The notes under the pieces are model-generated. The model saw only the letters and a list, made by a program, of their open reading frames with translations. It was not told the DNA's origin and made no database searches. The translations under genes and the position numbers were made by a program. 23,994 nucleotides of DNA, taken from IMG/VR virus record IMGVR_UViG_3300046467_001703, positions 1 to 23,994 of that record. One strand, 5' to 3'. Shown one piece after another: positions 1,956 to 13,838 of this stretch (position 1 is its first letter; every line of letters starts with the position of its first letter). The DNA comes from a virus.

Positions 1956-4247
1956 ATGGCCCTTACCGACGCCGAGATTAGGACACAAACAGCAGAGCTC
2001 GAAGCAGAGCAGATCCGTTTAGCTGGGGATGAGCCAATGGATGAGGACGAGCTCGAGTCTTTAGTGGGAGGGCTCATCGAGGATGCCCAGGACTATATTG
2101 ATCAGACTGAGGCTCTGGACCGCAATACAGCAAACGACTATTACCAGGGGCGGCCATTCGGTAATGAAGAAGACGGGCGCAGCCAGGTTGTTTCTCGAGA
2201 TGTTCGCGACACTGTGGCGTTGATGATGCCCCAGATTATGAGGACGTTTTTCGGATCAGAGAAGGTAGTTGAGTTTGTACCTCGAGGTCCAGAGGATGTT
2301 CAAATGGCAGAGCAAGCCACGGACTTTGTAAACCAGGTTTGCATTGGCCAGGACAATGAGGGCTTTTCTGTATTTTACAATATATTCCGTGACGCCCTGG
2401 TAAAGAGGGTAGGCATTGCAAAAGTAGATTGGGAAAGACGAGAGGAGGTTGAGCACGAAGAGTATACCGGGCTAGATGACCAGGGTCTGCAAGCATTAAT
2501 GTCGGATCCAGACATAGAGGGATCATCTTTAGAATCGTATCCGGATCCAAATTTTGTTCCACCACCACCACAACCGCCACAACAACCGATCTCTCCCGGC
2601 GGACCGCAGCCCGCGCCACCGCAGAACATGGAAGCTCCGCAGTTGCACGATGTTGTGATCCGCCGTCTTACCACAGAAGGTCGAATAACAATTGAAGCCC
2701 TTCCTCCGGAAGAATTCATAATAGATCGCCGCGCCAAGGGACTTGGACCCGATGAGTTTACTATTTGTGGCCATAGACGTTATTTGACTGTCAGTGAACT
2801 AACCTCAATGGGGTATGACTATGAGGATATGCTTTCCTTGGCCGGAGATGAGGATTCTTTTGGCACAAACACGGAGTTGCTATCACGCAACCCATTGGGT
2901 AATTATGCAGATAGTTTGGACGCAGGAGAAGCGAATAAAAGGGTCCTCTATGTGGAAGCATTCGCAAAAGTGGATTTCGGAGGTTCAGGAATCGCTTCAC
3001 TCCGCCGCTTTTGTTGCGCTGGGTCTCATTTTAAATTGCTACATCATTCTCCAGTTAATGATGTACCGTTTCAAATCTATTCTGGATTTAAAGAGCCGCA
3101 CCTTTGGAAGGGCCATTCCGTGGCGGATCTCACAATGGACATTCAGAAAATCAAGTCCTCCGTGATGCGGAATATGTTAGACAGTCTCGCCAAAAGTATT
3201 CACCCGGATACCTGGCTGGTGGAGGGCCAAGTTTCTTTGGACGATGCTTCCTCGAACCGCGTTGGAAAATTAATCCGCACCAGGGCTCCAGGGATGATAG
3301 GAGAGCTCAATAAGTCTTTCAACGGGAAGGAAGGATTCCCGATGCTCGACTATTTAGATGAGGTAAAGGGTGACAGGACCGGAATGTCCAAAGCGTCCAT
3401 GGGCCTTGATCCGAGCGCATTACAATCATCGACGAAAGCAGCAGTATCTGCGACTGTGGCAGCCTCGGCTGCACAACTGGAATTACTTTGTAGGGTGTTT
3501 GCAGAAACTGGGATGAAACCTTTATTTAAAAAGATTCTCAAGCTTTTGCACACCCACCAGGACAAAGCCAGGATGGTTCGTTTACGGAACGAATGGATCC
3601 AGGTGGATCCACAGACCTGGAACCAGATGGATGTTGCCGTGAATGTGGCCCTTGGCCTGGGAACAAACGAAGAGCGGATGGGAATGCTAGGGGGCCTGGC
3701 TGCAAAGCAGGAGGCAATCCTGAAAGAGCAGGGGCCACAGAATCCATTGGTCAACTTCCAGCAGTATCACACTACCCTGGCAAAGATGACCGAGCTAAGC
3801 GGATACAAAGACGTTCAGTCTTTCTGGACTGATCCATCGACTTATCAAGCGCCTCCTCCGCCACCTCCGCCCGAAGATACTCCAGACGAGATTTTCGCCA
3901 AAGCAAACGCCGCCAAGGCCACCGCAGATATTACCAAGGACCAGGAGCGCTTAAAATTAGATCGCGAGAAAATGATCCGCGAGGATGACTTGAACAGGGA
4001 CAAATTAGATGCAGAGCTCTCAATGAAGAAGGATGAGCTCGAGAGTAAATACCAGACAACAATCGATCAGACGGAGATCCGGGGCCAGATAGAGAAGGAC
4101 CGTGAGCAGATAAAGCTTGAGCAGATGCAACAACAACAAGCTCAGCAAGCTCCGCCTCCAGGGATGCCCCCGCAAGACATGAACCCTGAGCAAATGGGTC
4201 CATCGATCCCGGACTTTCCGCCTGACCAGATGCCAATGCCATCGTGA
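1956..4247 (+). CDS. Portal protein, SU10-like
   Basis: The portal forms the dodecameric ring at one capsid vertex through which DNA is packaged and ejected. The protein has 763 residues. The N-terminal region carries the conserved-looking stretch DGRSQVVSRDVRDTVALMMP (73-92), followed by FFGSEKVVEFVP, typical of portal proteins of SU10-like podoviruses. A central region around YVEAFAKVDF and the helix-rich ASMGLDPSALQSSTKAAVSA segment fit the stem and wing. Two low-complexity elements are notable: a proline-rich insert at about 202-222 and a C-terminal tail with seven prolines (633-639), a charged coiled coil (about 645-730) and a Q/P/M-rich end. The next gene starts inside its stop codon (GTGA). 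The family assignment is from recalled motifs; genomic order (terminase, portal, scaffold, capsid) supports it. Confidence 0.9.
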   Translation: MALTDAEIRTQTAELEAEQIRLAGDEPMDEDELESLVGGLIEDAQDYIDQTEALDRNTANDYYQGRPFGNEEDGRSQVVSRDVRDTVALMMPQIMRTFFGSEKVVEFVPRGPEDVQMAEQATDFVNQVCIGQDNEGFSVFYNIFRDALVKRVGIAKVDWERREEVEHEEYTGLDDQGLQALMSDPDIEGSSLESYPDPNFVPPPPQPPQQPISPGGPQPAPPQNMEAPQLHDVVIRRLTTEGRITIEALPPEEFIIDRRAKGLGPDEFTICGHRRYLTVSELTSMGYDYEDMLSLAGDEDSFGTNTELLSRNPLGNYADSLDAGEANKRVLYVEAFAKVDFGGSGIASLRRFCCAGSHFKLLHHSPVNDVPFQIYSGFKEPHLWKGHSVADLTMDIQKIKSSVMRNMLDSLAKSIHPDTWLVEGQVSLDDASSNRVGKLIRTRAPGMIGELNKSFNGKEGFPMLDYLDEVKGDRTGMSKASMGLDPSALQSSTKAAVSATVAASAAQLELLCRVFAETGMKPLFKKILKLLHTHQDKARMVRLRNEWIQVDPQTWNQMDVAVNVALGLGTNEERMGMLGGLAAKQEAILKEQGPQNPLVNFQQYHTTLAKMTELSGYKDVQSFWTDPSTYQAPPPPPPPEDTPDEIFAKANAAKATADITKDQERLKLDREKMIREDDLNRDKLDAELSMKKDELESKYQTTIDQTEIRGQIEKDREQIKLEQMQQQQAQQAPPPGMPPQDMNPEQMGPSIPDFPPDQMPMPS

Positions 4248-4516
4248 CAAAAAGGAAAAAGGGTCTCTCCACTCGTAAGACAACCGAGGAGCAGATTCAA
4301 CAAGGAAATGCGGCTGAGGCCGTTTTAACTTCTCCAGTATTCATAGAAGCATTTGAGATCCTGGAGGAGAAATACATCAATTCCTGGCTTTCCAGTGGAC
4401 TGTCAGACAGAGACCACCGTGAGACTCAGTTTTTGAGTTTACGAGTCCTCTCTGAGATGAAACTGGAATTAGAGTCAATGGTTAATGGTGGGAAGATCGC
4501 CAAAAATAATATATAG
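4244..4516 (+). CDS. Small conserved phage protein between portal and scaffold
   Basis: This 90-residue protein is hydrophilic and probably all-helical (TEEQIQQGNAAEAVLTSPVF, then FEILEEKYINSWL). It starts with GTG overlapping the portal stop (GTGA), which implies coupled translation. Small proteins of this layout commonly lie between portal and scaffold genes in related marine podoviruses, but no biochemical role is known to me. The location suggests a part in head assembly, as an inference only. Alternative ATG starts would remove the conserved-looking N-terminal half. Confidence 0.75.
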   Translation: MTKRKKGLSTRKTTEEQIQQGNAAEAVLTSPVFIEAFEILEEKYINSWLSSGLSDRDHRETQFLSLRVLSEMKLELESMVNGGKIAKNNI

Positions 4517-4518
4517 GA

Positions 4519-4532
4519 TTCGCTTTTGCGAA
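4519..4532 (+). other. Small hairpin upstream of scaffold gene
   Basis: TTCGC and GCGAA form a perfect 5-bp stem with a TTTT loop in the 34-nt gap between the small protein and the scaffold gene. No T-run follows, so it is not a convincing terminator. It may be an RNA stability or processing element that sets scaffold expression apart from upstream genes. Confidence 0.35.
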
Positions 4533-4550
4533 CAACCTTAGAAAGTAAAT

Positions 4551-5516
4551 ATGGCAGAAGAAGTACAGGGGGAGGTTCTCCATGTGGGAACTGAACTAGA
4601 AGAGGCCGCAAAGGCCTGGGGAAAGGACTTGGCCCTCGAATCTGGTGAAGAACCAGAGGACGAAGATAACCAAACTGACCCGGAGGTTCCAGAAGATGAA
4701 CCAGAAGAGGAAGAGCAGCAGGAGGAATTAGAGGAAGAGGAAGAAGACGAGGAGGCAGAATCAAACGCCCAAAAGTTTCAGGTGCGTTCTGATGGCGAAG
4801 ACCTAGAGGTCAGCCTGGATGAACTTATCTCCGGCTACAGTCGTCAATCTTCTTTTACTAAGAAATCCCAAAGCCTGGCAGAAGAGAAAAAGGGCTTTGA
4901 AAACGAACTTGCAGAATCAAGGGAAATGAGAGCGCAAGCTATCCAGATCCTGGAGAATGCAAAATCGGCTCAGACTCAAACGCCAGAAAGAGATGCAAAC
5001 TATTGGCAAGATCTCAAAGACACGGATCCCATGCAGTTCATGCTGGAGCGCGATGCTGTTCGAGAGGAGCAGTTCCAAGGACAAATGAGGGAGCAGCAGA
5101 TACAGACGCTGCGGTCTCAGGAGGACGCGGAACAAAGATCTAATCTCGAAAAATATGTTGACTCACAAAAGGGAGTTCTAAAAGAACTAGTCCCGGAGTG
5201 GAATGATCAAAAGGTGGCAGATGCAGAGAAGAAGATTATTCTTGCATACGGTTTAAAAACCGGATTTTCGCAAAGCGAATTAGACCAGGCATTCGACGCC
5301 AGGGCCGTTTCGACTATGCGGAAAGCAGCACTTTATGACCAACTATCAGCAAAGCGAAAAGGTTTAAAACCCGTTCAGCGAACAGGCATGAAAGCAGGAT
5401 CCCAGGCTGGAGATCCCAAACAAATACGCTCCGGGAAGGCGTCGGCAAGGTTAAAGAAATCGGGTAGCGTCGATGATGCAGCTTCGGTTTTTTACAATAT
5501 GATTCGTCAAAAATAA
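4551..5516 (+). CDS. Capsid scaffold protein
   Basis: This 321-residue protein directly precedes the major capsid gene, as expected for a scaffold that guides prohead assembly and then leaves. Residues 31-71 are extremely acidic with long Glu runs. The segment FQVRSDGEDLEVSLDELISG (76-95), followed by YSRQSSFTKKSQSLAEEKK, is a recognisable signature of scaffolds in this phage group. The middle (about 105-200) is predicted coiled coil rich in E/Q/R. The C-terminus is basic (RTGMKAGSQAGDPKQIRSGK, then ARLKKSG), fitting a capsid-binding tail that contacts the acidic inner shell. No serine-protease motif was seen, so it does not appear to be a protease fusion. The start ATG follows a weak AGAAAG tract. 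Confidence 0.85.
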   Translation: MAEEVQGEVLHVGTELEEAAKAWGKDLALESGEEPEDEDNQTDPEVPEDEPEEEEQQEELEEEEEDEEAESNAQKFQVRSDGEDLEVSLDELISGYSRQSSFTKKSQSLAEEKKGFENELAESREMRAQAIQILENAKSAQTQTPERDANYWQDLKDTDPMQFMLERDAVREEQFQGQMREQQIQTLRSQEDAEQRSNLEKYVDSQKGVLKELVPEWNDQKVADAEKKIILAYGLKTGFSQSELDQAFDARAVSTMRKAALYDQLSAKRKGLKPVQRTGMKAGSQAGDPKQIRSGKASARLKKSGSVDDAASVFYNMIRQK

Positions 5517-5532
5517 ATAAAGGAAAAATACT

Positions 5533-6973
5533 ATGGGTTTAGTAGCAAACACTTTTGAGACATACCAGGCCATAGGCAACAGAGAGGACCTCGCAAACAC
5601 GATCTGAACAAATTGGATCGAAATCGGGTGAATTGCTGGGATCCCCTAACGGTAATGCCGAGGGCAATCAGCAGCCAAGACTGTGAAAGTGCAAATAGTA
5701 GCAGTAAGGTTCAACGACTAGAGAGTGAGCAGCACAAGCGATAACCTCTCCAAGAGCGCCCGACACCTAACGGTGAAGATATAGTCTGAGCTATATGGAT
5801 GACATATAGAAGTGGCCAATTAAAAAAGCCACGGTAACAAAACTGATAATATATCGCCAAGCGACGTACCTTTCATGTCTATGATTGGTCGCTCAAAAGC
5901 CAAGAACACTCTAGTAGAGTGGCAAACAGATGCGTGAACAAACTAGCGCCCTTAGCCAGTAATGGCTATTGCAAATCCTGTGAATTGCGGGGACGCCCAG
6001 AACGGGTAATCCGCAGCCAAGCCTCCAAGGGAGGACGGTTCAACGACCATTCCGAAAGGAAGTACACTCAAGTGAGTGGAAGCGCAGGAAACCCCGGAAG
6101 GGGTTGTGAGATGGTCTCATCTAGTTAGGAATAACTAGCAGCCTTATGGCGGTCCAAAGACTAACGACTTTGGGCGAAGATAATGTAGCAGCCGCAGTGG
6201 CAACTAATGCACAGAAAGAAGGTGATGATTACGCCTTTGATGCAGTCGTACCAACGGTACGTTTAACTAATCATACTCAGATTTCTCGTAAGACAATCAT
6301 TGTGTCTGGTTCCCAGCAAGCTGGAAATCATGCAGGAGTTTCTTCGGAGCTCGCATATGGTTTAGCTAAGAGAAGCAAAGAGCTCAAGCGCGATATGGAA
6401 ACGTGCTTAACCAACAAAGTGGCAAAGGCCGCAGGAGCATCAGATACTGCCAGGAAACTGGGTGGACTTGAAACCTGGATCTCGACAAACACTTCGAGAG
6501 GTGGTGGATCTCCAGTAGGTTCTGGAGCGGGCGGAGGAGCAGCCCCTGTTGATGCAGGAACTGCACGCGCATTTACCGTTGCAATGTTGAAAACCGTTAT
6601 CCAGGCTTGTTATTCGGCTGGTTCGGATTCCAATACCATAATGGTGGGGCCACATAATAAAGGTGTCCTCAGTGGATTTGCAGGGCGTGATGGAGCTCGT
6701 CAGATGGGAGCAGAGAAGAAAATCAATGTGGCTGCTGACCTTTTTTCTTCTGACTTTGGAGATTACAAGGTAATTCCCAATAGGTTCCAGCGTGACAAAT
6801 CGGCATTCGTTATTGATCCAGAATATTGGAGCGTGGCGTACTACCGTGATTTCAAGCAGGAAGAAGTTGCAAAAACCGGGGACGCAATTAAAAGGGCGCT
6901 CCTGGTAGAATTCACGCTTGTCTCAAAAAATGAGGCTAGTTCGGGAATCATTGCAGATTTGACCACAAGCTAA
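5533..6973 (+). CDS. Major capsid protein, split by two group I introns: join(5533..5605,5846..5935,6186..6973)
   Basis: Spliced, this encodes a 316-residue DUF5309 / SU10-type (HK97-fold) major head protein that forms the icosahedral shell. Exon 1 gives MGLVANTFETYQAIGNREDL plus ANTI and one base; exon 2 gives the N-terminal family core YNISPSDVPFM through VEWQTDA; exon 3 continues LAAAVATNAQKEGDD and the remainder, including TISRKT-like QISRKTIIVSGSQ, ELKRDMET, ARKLGGLETWI, NTIMVGP, VIPNRFQRD and DPEYWSVAY. Both junctions split a codon after its first base (TAT = Y, TTA = L), and the joined sequence matches the family where neither unspliced frame does. Start: AAGGAAAAATACT-ATG at 5533 has a good Shine-Dalgarno. 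In unspliced RNA translation would stop after 24 codons. An ATG at 6146 gives an in-frame 275-aa ORF, but its first 13 residues are encoded by intron 2 and it lacks a ribosome binding site. Confidence 0.95.
5606..5845 (+). ncRNA. Group I intron 1 in the capsid gene (240 nt, no ORF)
   Basis: The intron follows exon-terminal T5605 and ends with G5845. P1 is a perfect 6-bp helix, exon CGATCT (5600-5605) with guide GGATCG (5615-5620), closing on the expected U-G pair. Core helices visible: P3 CGGGTG (5625-5630)/CGCCCG (5757-5762); P4 TGCTG (5634-5638)/CAGCA (5669-5673); P5 CCCT (5644-5647)/AGGG (5661-5664); P7 GACTA (5716-5720)/TAGTC (5782-5786); P7.1-like GAGAG (5721-5725)/CTCTC (5746-5750); P8 CACC/GGTG (5764-5775); P9 CTATATG/CATATAG (5791-5809); P9.1 GTGGC/GCCAC (5812-5832). 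Classical motifs are present: AATCAGCAGCCAAG, GTTCAACGACTAGA and AAGATATAGTCTG. The extra helix between P7 and P3' and the similarity to the T4 td 3' core suggest subgroup IA. P10 pairing is weak. There is no homing-endonuclease ORF. Confidence 0.95.
5936..6185 (+). ncRNA. Group I intron 2 in the capsid gene (250 nt, no ORF)
   Basis: The intron follows T5935 and ends with G6185. P1 pairs exon GCGT (5932-5935) with GCGC (5946-5949), ending in a U-G pair; P10 pairs exon-3 TAG (6186-6188) with CTA (5943-5945). Other helices: P2 AGCCA/TGGCT (5954-5967); P3 CCTGTG (5977-5982)/CGCAGG (6083-6088); P4 TGCGG (5986-5990)/CCGCA (6011-6015); P5 GCCC/GGGT (5995-6007); P6 CCTCC/GGAGG (6022-6034); P7 GACCA (6045-6049)/TGGTC (6112-6116); P7.1 TTCC-GAAA-GGAA (6050-6061); P7.2 CACTC/GAGTG (6065-6078); P8 AACCCC-GGAA-GGGGTT (6090-6105); P9 CTAGTTA-GGAA-TAACTAG (6121-6138); P9.1 CCAAAG/CTTTGG (6154-6173). 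P7.1 and P7.2 point to subgroup IA. Its P7 differs from intron 1 by a compensated pair (GACTA/TAGTC versus GACCA/TGGTC). No endonuclease is encoded. Confidence 0.94.
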
Positions 6974-6981
6974 TTTTAACA

Positions 6982-7272
6982 ATGAGTTCTAAAAAACTCT
7001 TAGACTGGTCCCAGAATCGGAAAGAAACCTTCCACTGGGATCAGCATGATAAAACTTTCACGATTGAAGCTAAGGAAGACTGCGAGCCATTGATTAAAAT
7101 GGCAAAGAATATGTCTGAGCTCCAACCATCAAAAGAGTGGAGGCATTCTGCGGTAATACCGCAGTTTGTCCTCGACCAAAGTATGAGGGAGAGATGGGAA
7201 CCAAAGGATTGGAAAAAGTGGGCAAACGACTCCCACAACAAGATGTTTCGGACCTGGCCTGGAGTACTCTAA
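6982..7272 (+). CDS. Small hypothetical protein downstream of the capsid gene
   Basis: This 96-residue, hydrophilic protein is rich in Trp and Lys (FHWDQHDKTFTIEAKEDCEP, then RHSAVIPQFVLDQSMRERW and FRTWPG). It starts 8 nt after the capsid stop and its C-terminal coding region overlaps the next gene. No signal peptide or membrane segment is seen. The short distance to the capsid gene suggests co-expression; a role in head maturation is possible but unsupported by any recognised motif. The start is the first ATG after the capsid stop, without a strong ribosome binding site. Confidence 0.7.
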   Translation: MSSKKLLDWSQNRKETFHWDQHDKTFTIEAKEDCEPLIKMAKNMSELQPSKEWRHSAVIPQFVLDQSMRERWEPKDWKKWANDSHNKMFRTWPGVL

Positions 7273-7871
7273 AAGTTGCAGTCGTAGTTCCATCATGTTC
7301 AGGATTATGGCCAGCAAAGTTTGGAGAGTGTTTATCAAATATGGTTGCCTATTTCCAGGGTAGTCATTTTGAAGGAGATCACGAAATAAAAGTCTTTTCC
7401 TTTTGTGGAAAAGTAATGCCCGAGATTCGGCATCATCTAATTGGTGAAGCAATAGCCTGGGAAGCAACCCATGTTTTGATGTTGCAGCCGGAGCTCACGT
7501 TTCCGGTGAATTCGCTACACCAGTTACTTGCTCGAGGGCGAGCGATTATTGGAGTTAATTATTTAACGAATATAATCAAGAATGATTATGCTGCATACCG
7601 GAAAAATGGGACGGTACATCCGGATCCAAAAGGTCCAGAAACCGAGGATGTTGATGGAGTTGTTCCAGGAATGGTTTTATTTAACATTCCCGTTTTCGAC
7701 GTCCTGGAGATTCCGTTTTTCATACATAAGCAGATTGGTGATACTCCAGGGTTTACGGAGGATCACATTGGTTTTTGGAAGCAAGTGAAAAAGCATAAGA
7801 TTCCATGCGTCATTGATCACAAATTGTCGCTGGAAATTAAATCGTTGCATCATGGAGAATTGTGGCATTAG
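7194..7871 (+). CDS. Glycosyltransferase-like (GT-A fold) protein with degenerate metal site
   Basis: The core starts at LKVAVVVPSCSG (residues 26-37 from this start), continues through AIAWEATHVLMLQPELTFP (about 86-104) and AIIGVNYLT, and ends with TEDHIGFWKQVKKHKIPCVI (188-207) plus DHKLSLEI. This is the layout of phage GT-A-type glycosyltransferases, whose central motif usually reads LFLDxDMxFP. Here the acidic metal-binding residues are replaced (QPELTFP), so catalysis is doubtful and a structural or binding role is possible. The reading frame is open from a GTG at 7137, but that overlaps the upstream gene heavily; ATG 7194, with GAGGGAGAG just upstream, is preferred. GTG 7218 is another option. 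It overlaps the adaptor gene by 10 nt. Confidence 0.6.
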   Translation: MGTKGLEKVGKRLPQQDVSDLAWSTLKVAVVVPSCSGLWPAKFGECLSNMVAYFQGSHFEGDHEIKVFSFCGKVMPEIRHHLIGEAIAWEATHVLMLQPELTFPVNSLHQLLARGRAIIGVNYLTNIIKNDYAAYRKNGTVHPDPKGPETEDVDGVVPGMVLFNIPVFDVLEIPFFIHKQIGDTPGFTEDHIGFWKQVKKHKIPCVIDHKLSLEIKSLHHGELWH

Positions 7872-8473
7872 CAAATTATACTGATCTAAAGGCAAGCGTT
7901 GCAGATTTCTTGAACCGCTCTGATTTGACAAGTGTGATTCCAGACTTCGTGACAATGGCAGAAGCAGATTTTAACAGGACTCTAAGGGTCCGGGAAATGT
8001 CTGTACGAACCCAAGCTCCTATTGATTCTCAATATGTAAAGTTGCCAGATGATTTCCTGGGGATGAGGAACATTGATCTGCTAACGGATCCAGTGACTCC
8101 CATGACCTTCAAGAATCTCCAGAACCTGGATATTCATAGAGCAGGAGACGCAACGGGCAAGCCAATTTATTATTCAATTATGCAGAATAATATCGAGTTT
8201 GCACCCGCCCCGGATGGTGATTACACAATTGAGATTGTGTACTATCAGAAAGTCCCAGCACTTGCAGACAACTCAACTTCGTGGCTTTTGGACGCTCATC
8301 CAGATGCGTATCTTTATGGAACTTTACAGCACTCAGCACCCTATTTACAATCTGATGAGAGGATAGGAGTCTGGGCCGGGAAGTATCAGCAGATCATTGA
8401 GCAGATTATAACCTCGGACGAGAAGGCCAAATTCAGTGGTTCGACTCCGAGCATTTCATTCACACCCTTCTAA
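7862..8473 (+). CDS. Head-tail adaptor protein (SU10-adaptor-like)
   Basis: The 203-residue protein has the helical N-terminus MALANYTDLKASVADFLNRS and the segment FVTMAEADFNRTLRVREMSV, then KLPDDFLGMRNIDLL, NNIEFAPAPDGDYTIEIVYY and a helical C-terminus. This pattern fits the small adaptor proteins that form a ring below the portal in SU10-like podoviruses. It begins with GTG at 7862, inside the end of the preceding gene (GTGGCATTAG overlap), which suggests translational coupling. Its position after the capsid gene agrees with a connector function. The assignment rests on recalled family patterns and context. Confidence 0.78.
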   Translation: MALANYTDLKASVADFLNRSDLTSVIPDFVTMAEADFNRTLRVREMSVRTQAPIDSQYVKLPDDFLGMRNIDLLTDPVTPMTFKNLQNLDIHRAGDATGKPIYYSIMQNNIEFAPAPDGDYTIEIVYYQKVPALADNSTSWLLDAHPDAYLYGTLQHSAPYLQSDERIGVWAGKYQQIIEQIITSDEKAKFSGSTPSISFTPF

Positions 8474-13463: not shown

Positions 13464-13838
13464 ATGTTGGCCTGTAAAAATTTTACAGAAAAAGAACTCG
13501 CCTGTAAGGGTACAAATTGCTGCGGCGGAGAAAATAAATGCCAGGATGAGCTCGTTGAAAAGCTCCAACAATTAAGGGACGAAGTTGGTTTCCCAATTTC
13601 AATCTCCAGCGGGTATCGATGCGAATTGCATAATCGCGTGTCAGGGGGCCACCCAACCTCGAGCCATATGGAGGGCCTTGCAATTGACGCACTTTGTTCT
13701 GGCCAGAGGGCCTTAGATTTAGTGGCTGCGGCCATTCCGATATTCGAGGGTGTCGGCATTTCACAGAAGAGTAAATCGCACAATAAGCGTTTTGTACATT
13801 TGGATATTAAACCCGGGAAAAGAATGTGGTCATATTAA
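13464..13838 (+). CDS. Peptidase M15 endolysin
   Basis: The 124-residue protein is a zinc-dependent D-Ala-D-Ala-type peptidase that cleaves peptidoglycan cross-links at lysis. Visible motifs: FTEKELACKG near the N-terminus, ISSGYRCELHN (47-57), SSHMEGLAID (66-75), with H68 and D75 as expected zinc ligands, and RFVHLDI (109-115), with H112 as the third ligand. The length suits a single-domain Peptidase_M15_3-like enzyme. No signal peptide is present, so export to the periplasm should depend on a holin. Four cysteines occur in residues 14-26. It sits with the spanin-like genes. The lipoprotein gene downstream overlaps it by 13 nt. Confidence 0.9.
   Translation: MLACKNFTEKELACKGTNCCGGENKCQDELVEKLQQLRDEVGFPISISSGYRCELHNRVSGGHPTSSHMEGLAIDALCSGQRALDLVAAAIPIFEGVGISQKSKSHNKRFVHLDIKPGKRMWSY

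Follow-up and report, generated by a model that had tools for sequence, protein, structure and literature searches.

A predicted pair of group I introns, ORF-less and of separate origin, in the major capsid gene of an SU10-like phage

Two group I introns of the IA type, neither containing an ORF and each acquired separately, very probably interrupt the gene for the major capsid protein of an SU10-like phage; both are predicted to be self-splicing. The gene lies in a window of 23,994 bases, i.e., an entire IMG/VR record consisting of a metagenome contig, whose source is, judging by its genes, an uncultured SU10-like phage. Gene identity, exon boundaries, intron family, the occurrence of zero, one or two introns among relatives and the separate origin of the pair are all readings of the sequence.

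The capsid gene is part of an SU10-type head cluster (1956-8473, + strand) in which profile matches identified portal, scaffold, capsid and adaptor genes, and the neighbourhood expected of an SU10/DUF5309 capsid is thus present. The portal gene (1956-4247, +; SU10_portal, 5e-188) is followed by a head-scaffolding gene directly before the capsid gene (4551-5516, +; phrog_3927), with the adaptor gene located 3' of the latter (7862-8473, +; SU10_adaptor, 3e-35). Elsewhere in the window, a small Peptidase_M15_3 protein encoded at 13464-13838 is probably the phage's endolysin.

Splice sites were located by a blind spliced alignment in which any nearby T was admitted as an exon end and any G as an intron end, with the protein of L003, a relative having an uninterrupted and 83% identical capsid protein, as the guide. 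This alignment to a DUF5309 homologue recovered 5533-5605, 5846-5935 and 6186-6970, with a stop codon directly after, and so returned exactly the exons 5533-5605, 5846-5935 and 6186-6973 proposed in an earlier note on this DNA. Across site 1, the DNA of L003 agrees letter for letter with that of the spliced window, leaving a single possible position for the intron. Exon 1 (5533-5605, +; 73 nt), which rests on the spliced alignment and on relatives, encodes residues 1-24 and the first base of codon 25, and has a ribosome-binding-like motif, AAGGA, just 5' of it. Exon 2 (5846-5935, +; 90 nt) encodes residues 25-54 and the first base of codon 55, and occurs without interruption in L003, L008 and L091. 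The rest of the capsid residues are supplied by exon 3 (6186-6973, +; 788 nt including the stop). Joined, the exons give 951 nt and 316 amino acids with no internal stop, and the proposed peptide joins, LANTI-YNISPSDVPF and EWQTDA-LAAAVATNA, proved correct. The spliced protein matched Pfam SU10_MCP (PF17236) over profile positions 8-292 of 292 (1.8e-97, 326.9 bits) as well as phrog_1328 (2.3e-109). These matches confirm the predicted product as a full-length SU10/DUF5309 major capsid protein of 316 amino acids, in line with the continuous DUF5309-type capsid of the earlier note. Gene family, intron number and type, and exact splice sites as first read are all confirmed by independent comparisons, for which relatives having zero, one or two introns served as natural controls.

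A gene caller would instead start this gene at an ATG within intron 2 (6146-6185, +) and report a truncated ORF of 275 amino acids. Were there no splicing, this ORF would be the virion protein and exons 1 and 2 would be relics. The stretch 6146-6973 is indeed open from its ATG and retains a match to SU10_MCP, although only to positions 41-292 (265.9 bits). However, the ATG at 6146 is replaced by AACGG in L008 and L091 and is therefore not a conserved start, nor is there a ribosome-binding motif 5' of it. Furthermore, all 30 of the 30 exon 2 residues are kept in L157, L008, L091 and L003, every change being synonymous. We consider a truncated virion protein extremely improbable and retain the spliced, three-exon gene.

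Searches with the Rfam family RF00028 (gathering score 50) bore out the two group I introns, yielding 76.9 bits (E 3.4e-18) at 5482-5809 in the region of intron 1 and 70.9 bits (E 2e-16) at 5926-6138 in that of intron 2; no further match in the window attained the cut-off of any Rfam family. Intron 1 (5606-5845, +; 240 nt) is delimited by RF00028 and by the empty site in L003, and intron 2 (5936-6185, +; 250 nt) by RF00028 and a site that is filled in relatives. Both are ORF-less and in phase 1, begin with GAACAAA and have core motifs in common. Each is preceded by an exon-end U and closes with a G (U5605/G5845 and U5935/G6185). In intron 1, the exon strand CGAUCU (5600-5605, +) pairs with the guide sequence (IGS) GGAUCG (5615-5620, +) in a P1 of 6 bp that is also found in the minimum free energy (MFE) fold. 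The guide sequence of intron 2 (5943-5949, +) comprises CUA (P10) and GCGC (P1), the latter forming a P1 of 4 bp with GCGU (5932-5935). Both P1 helices have a U.G pair at the cut. As read from the sequence, a P10 is possible at intron 2 between the exon 3 start UAG (6186-6188) and CUA, an arrangement also seen in the L169 intron, whereas inspection of the intron 1 sequence identified no convincing P10. The guide pairing at the exon ends claimed earlier thus holds for P1 of both introns and for P10 of intron 2; the lack of a convincing P10 at intron 1 counts against the overall reading.

Within the core, the RF00028 alignment and the sequence place P7, the helix that binds guanosine, at 5716-5720 (GACUA) and 5782-5786 (UAGUC) on the + strand of intron 1, and at 6045-6049 (GACCA) and 6112-6116 (UGGUC) on that of intron 2. 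P7 differs compensatorily between the two introns, and P3 also pairs through different bases. The MFE folds are more stable than those of shuffled sequences (z -3.55 for intron 1 and -4.16 for intron 2) and contain hairpins at the P7.1/P7.2 position, between P7 and P3, by which both introns are predicted to be of the IA type.

From these features we infer splicing itself. Each intron would fold into a ribozyme core in the transcript, with the upstream exon end held by P1. Guanosine would attack 3' of U5605 or U5935, the freed exon would attack 3' of G5845 or G6185, and exon ligation would produce the message for 316 residues. Because a phase-1 exon U is followed by intron GA, an in-frame UGA falls exactly at each 5' splice site, and ribosomes on unspliced RNA would halt there. 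Few late products are normally as abundant as the capsid protein, so that two ribozymes would become necessary steps in making virions.

Exon skipping, i.e., the joining of the 5' site of intron 1 to the 3' site of intron 2, would produce an in-frame capsid isoform of 286 amino acids, either alone or beside the full-length protein. Exon 2 is symmetric, since it spans 90 nt between two phase-1 introns, and the reading frame would survive its loss; in SIOphi terL, loss of an internal exon even gives the dominant product (PMC11878797). On the other hand, exon 2 encodes the most conserved stretch of the capsid protein and is retained in every relative examined, and the guide sequences give the long join no advantage. 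We regard the shorter isoform as unlikely and favour ligation of all three exons.

The nearest relatives were gathered by two protein searches together with pattern scans. Both sites were empty, with no RF00028 match, in ten of them (L003-L007, L009, L159, L162, L164 and L166); L009 and its longer copy L168 begin at capsid residue 14. Site 2 alone was filled in L008, L091 and L169, and both sites were filled in L087 and its longer copy L157, which come from another metagenome. The L091 intron is 93.6% identical to window intron 2, L008 and the window are 74.2% identical over the coding sequence of the capsid, and the site-2 intron of L169, at 66% identity, occupies the same position to the base. 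Although the window is one metagenome contig, which might raise the question of an assembly artefact or chimera, that account is refuted by L157, which has both introns at the same sites and DNA approximately 77-89% identical to the window along its length; its probability is effectively nil. That level of identity also makes L157 a different phage from that of the window. Six further contigs (L083-L086, L089 and L090) matched the scan pattern, yet had no intron at the matched site. In L008 and L091, ATA replaces ATC just 5' of site 1 (window 5584-5640), a synonymous change that would disrupt one P1 pair of intron 1; it may possibly relate to the absence of intron 1 from these relatives, or be due to chance.

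The window and L157 share 95.8% and 98.8% identity in their introns, and 83.9% in the coding sequence of the capsid. In the stretch flanking intron 2 (codons 36-110), 64 of 68 codons are kept, as opposed to 137 of 211 elsewhere. This pattern would be the expected trace of exchange of an intron-bearing segment, and recombination without homing would match it equally well. Over a short stretch at site 1, the window and L003, in which both sites are empty, also agree in most codons (16/18 vs 128/235, p = 0.005). This likeness may reflect old conversion or intron loss, and would fit loss as well as gain.

Given their common GAACAAA start and core motifs, the two introns might be regarded as tandem duplicates of one intron. 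Their identity is only 44.7%, however, and a tree built from 33 intron cores placed intron 2 among introns of other capsid genes (support 95.1/98), split from intron 1 with support of 99.8/96. Intron 2 is, moreover, found without intron 1 in L008, L091 and L169. Duplication is very unlikely in our estimation, and introns 1 and 2 look like separate acquisitions. As to the route of spread, we infer that the introns move as DNA among related phages. No homing-endonuclease domain was detected in any intron ORF or scanned window protein, and neither intron encodes a protein; that no endonuclease gene was found there counts against this account of spread. Because the introns have no endonuclease of their own, they would probably rely on one acting in trans or on ordinary recombination.

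Neither a short exon flanked by two introns (phiNIT1 and Twort) nor an intron in a capsid gene (LittleE) is new among phages. The Bacillus phage genes phiNIT1 rNDPL and SIOphi terL have two to three group I introns per gene, and a small exon flanked by two introns, as well as exon skipping, has been described in such genes (PMC11878797). An older multi-intron example, as cited in PMC11878797, is provided by orf142 and nrdE of the Staphylococcus phage Twort (Landthaler and Shub 1999; Landthaler et al. 2002). These genes resemble that of the window in having multiple IA-like introns, with a small exon between two of them, but differ in being RNR, terminase and polymerase genes, in that most of their introns contain endonuclease genes, and in that their splicing has been shown in vitro. 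The architecture that the earlier note called unusual is so for capsid genes in the searchable literature, but multi-intron phage genes with a small exon have been published (PMC11878797), and some related capsid genes described below have more introns than the window gene. Mycobacteriophage LittleE has an efficiently spliced intron in its major capsid gene (PMC3706429); unlike the window, it has one intron, of 819 bp and with an endonuclease gene, and its capsid protein is unrelated (PMC3706429). In the case of the BAKA/Optimus tail intron, that of BAKA is small, endonuclease-free and in a virion gene, as in the window, but there is one per gene (PMC3706429). The Jug huge phages have many short introns (mean approximately 206 nt), 37 of 76 of which were spliced in metatranscriptomes; they differ from the window in being gut Bacteroides phages, with terL, nrdD and DNA polymerase as the named genes (PMC12363816). 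The capsid, portal and adaptor of the window all belong to the SU10-type head families, whereas, among the protein-search matches listed, the capsid genes of the phage relatives are uninterrupted. In the open-access literature, outside which most subscription papers lie, we found no account of a capsid gene with more than one group I intron, and a capsid intron is not described in either PMC10286775 or PMC10580990.

A 2025 paper called it "mysterious" that phage group I introns apparently favour genes of nucleotide and DNA metabolism (PMC12350094), and the capsid cases suggest that this picture is incomplete. A search with a pattern built on the P3-P5 region of window-type introns matched 34 viral contigs. 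Host genes were assigned from the open frames beside each intron, or, for some contigs, through near-identity to a scanned contig. In 24 of the 34 contigs the intron lay in a major capsid gene, although this share is not an unbiased census, the pattern having been derived from capsid introns. Five capsid families were represented: SU10-type (L087, L088, L091, L094, L099, L100 and L105), Phage_capsid_2/phrog_3437 (L092, L093, L095, L103, L119 and L122), Phage_capsid_3/phrog_334 (L109 and L113), phrog_14242 (L098, L102 and L120) and Phage_cap_E/phrog_1005 (L096, L097, L101, L106, L107 and L121). Since several contigs are near-copies of one another, these amount to approximately 10 independent capsid cases. 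Other hosts were further virion genes (L114 and L117), RNR (L108 and L110), thymidylate synthase (L115) and, as read from motifs, DNA polymerase (L112 and L118); the remaining matches (L104, L111 and L116) had no host-gene assignment. In the three GenBank isolates examined, similar intron DNA was located within or next to genes for RNR or DNA polymerase, or within a gene of unassigned identity, and in no case in a capsid gene. The window introns form part of a wider and apparently still undescribed set of introns in capsid genes. A two-intron case in another family is seen at L119:8346-8883, where two close group I introns lie in a Phage_capsid_2-type capsid gene.

Some members of this set are predicted from their DNA to contain intron arrays. 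The SU10-type capsid gene of L105 (9136-11420) has five predicted group I introns of 235-285 nt and six exons, and its predicted spliced product of 319 residues shares 46% identity with the protein of the window and matches a profile of intron-free relatives with an E of 7e-113. Introns 1 and 2 of L105 sit 2 and 7 nt, as read from the sequences, from the window insertion sites. In Phage_cap_E genes, an array of approximately 11 tandem introns was predicted on contigs from four metagenomes (L107:529-3889, L106:1164-3237, L096:1529-5451 and L097:1427-4589, all on the - strand). A whole-record search of L107 returned eleven RF00028 matches within 3.4 kb. Its spliced alignment, guided by a composite of S-CBWM1, whose Phage_cap_E gene is uninterrupted, and the less interrupted L101, predicted introns of 259-286 nt and exons of approximately 12 (uncertain), 27, 5, 45, 64, 10, 32, 81, 8, 37, 38 and at least 490 nt. 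The first seven joins are also present in L106 and L096, and the first three in L097, while L101 is uninterrupted at five of the L107 intron positions. Most L107 introns are closest to each other (nine of them plus L101 at 0.997 in one tree, with much weaker support in the 33-core tree), which suggests that they may have spread within the gene.

Somewhat tentatively, though we favour the idea over its negation, major capsid genes may be the principal, though so far overlooked, niche of small group I introns that lack ORFs. At least five families would have been entered, with multiplication within the gene in some phages to approximately 11 introns (predicted exons down to 5-10 nt; L107 and its kin), such that virion production would hang on many ribozyme reactions per transcript, and the window would represent a two-intron stage. 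The natural alleles with zero, one or two introns provide material for studying cost, spread and loss. With regard to annotation, intron-bearing capsid genes would be reported truncated, here as 275 instead of 316 amino acids, and arrays would be largely missed.

Group I matches were also observed beyond these capsid genes. The 279-kb phage of L096 has more of them outside its capsid array (G004:C1:20378-21454 and 72235-73397). The 20,445-base record of L114 (G009) gave twelve RF00028 matches, some below the cut-off, which cluster near virion-protein genes, one of them adjoining phrog_2729.
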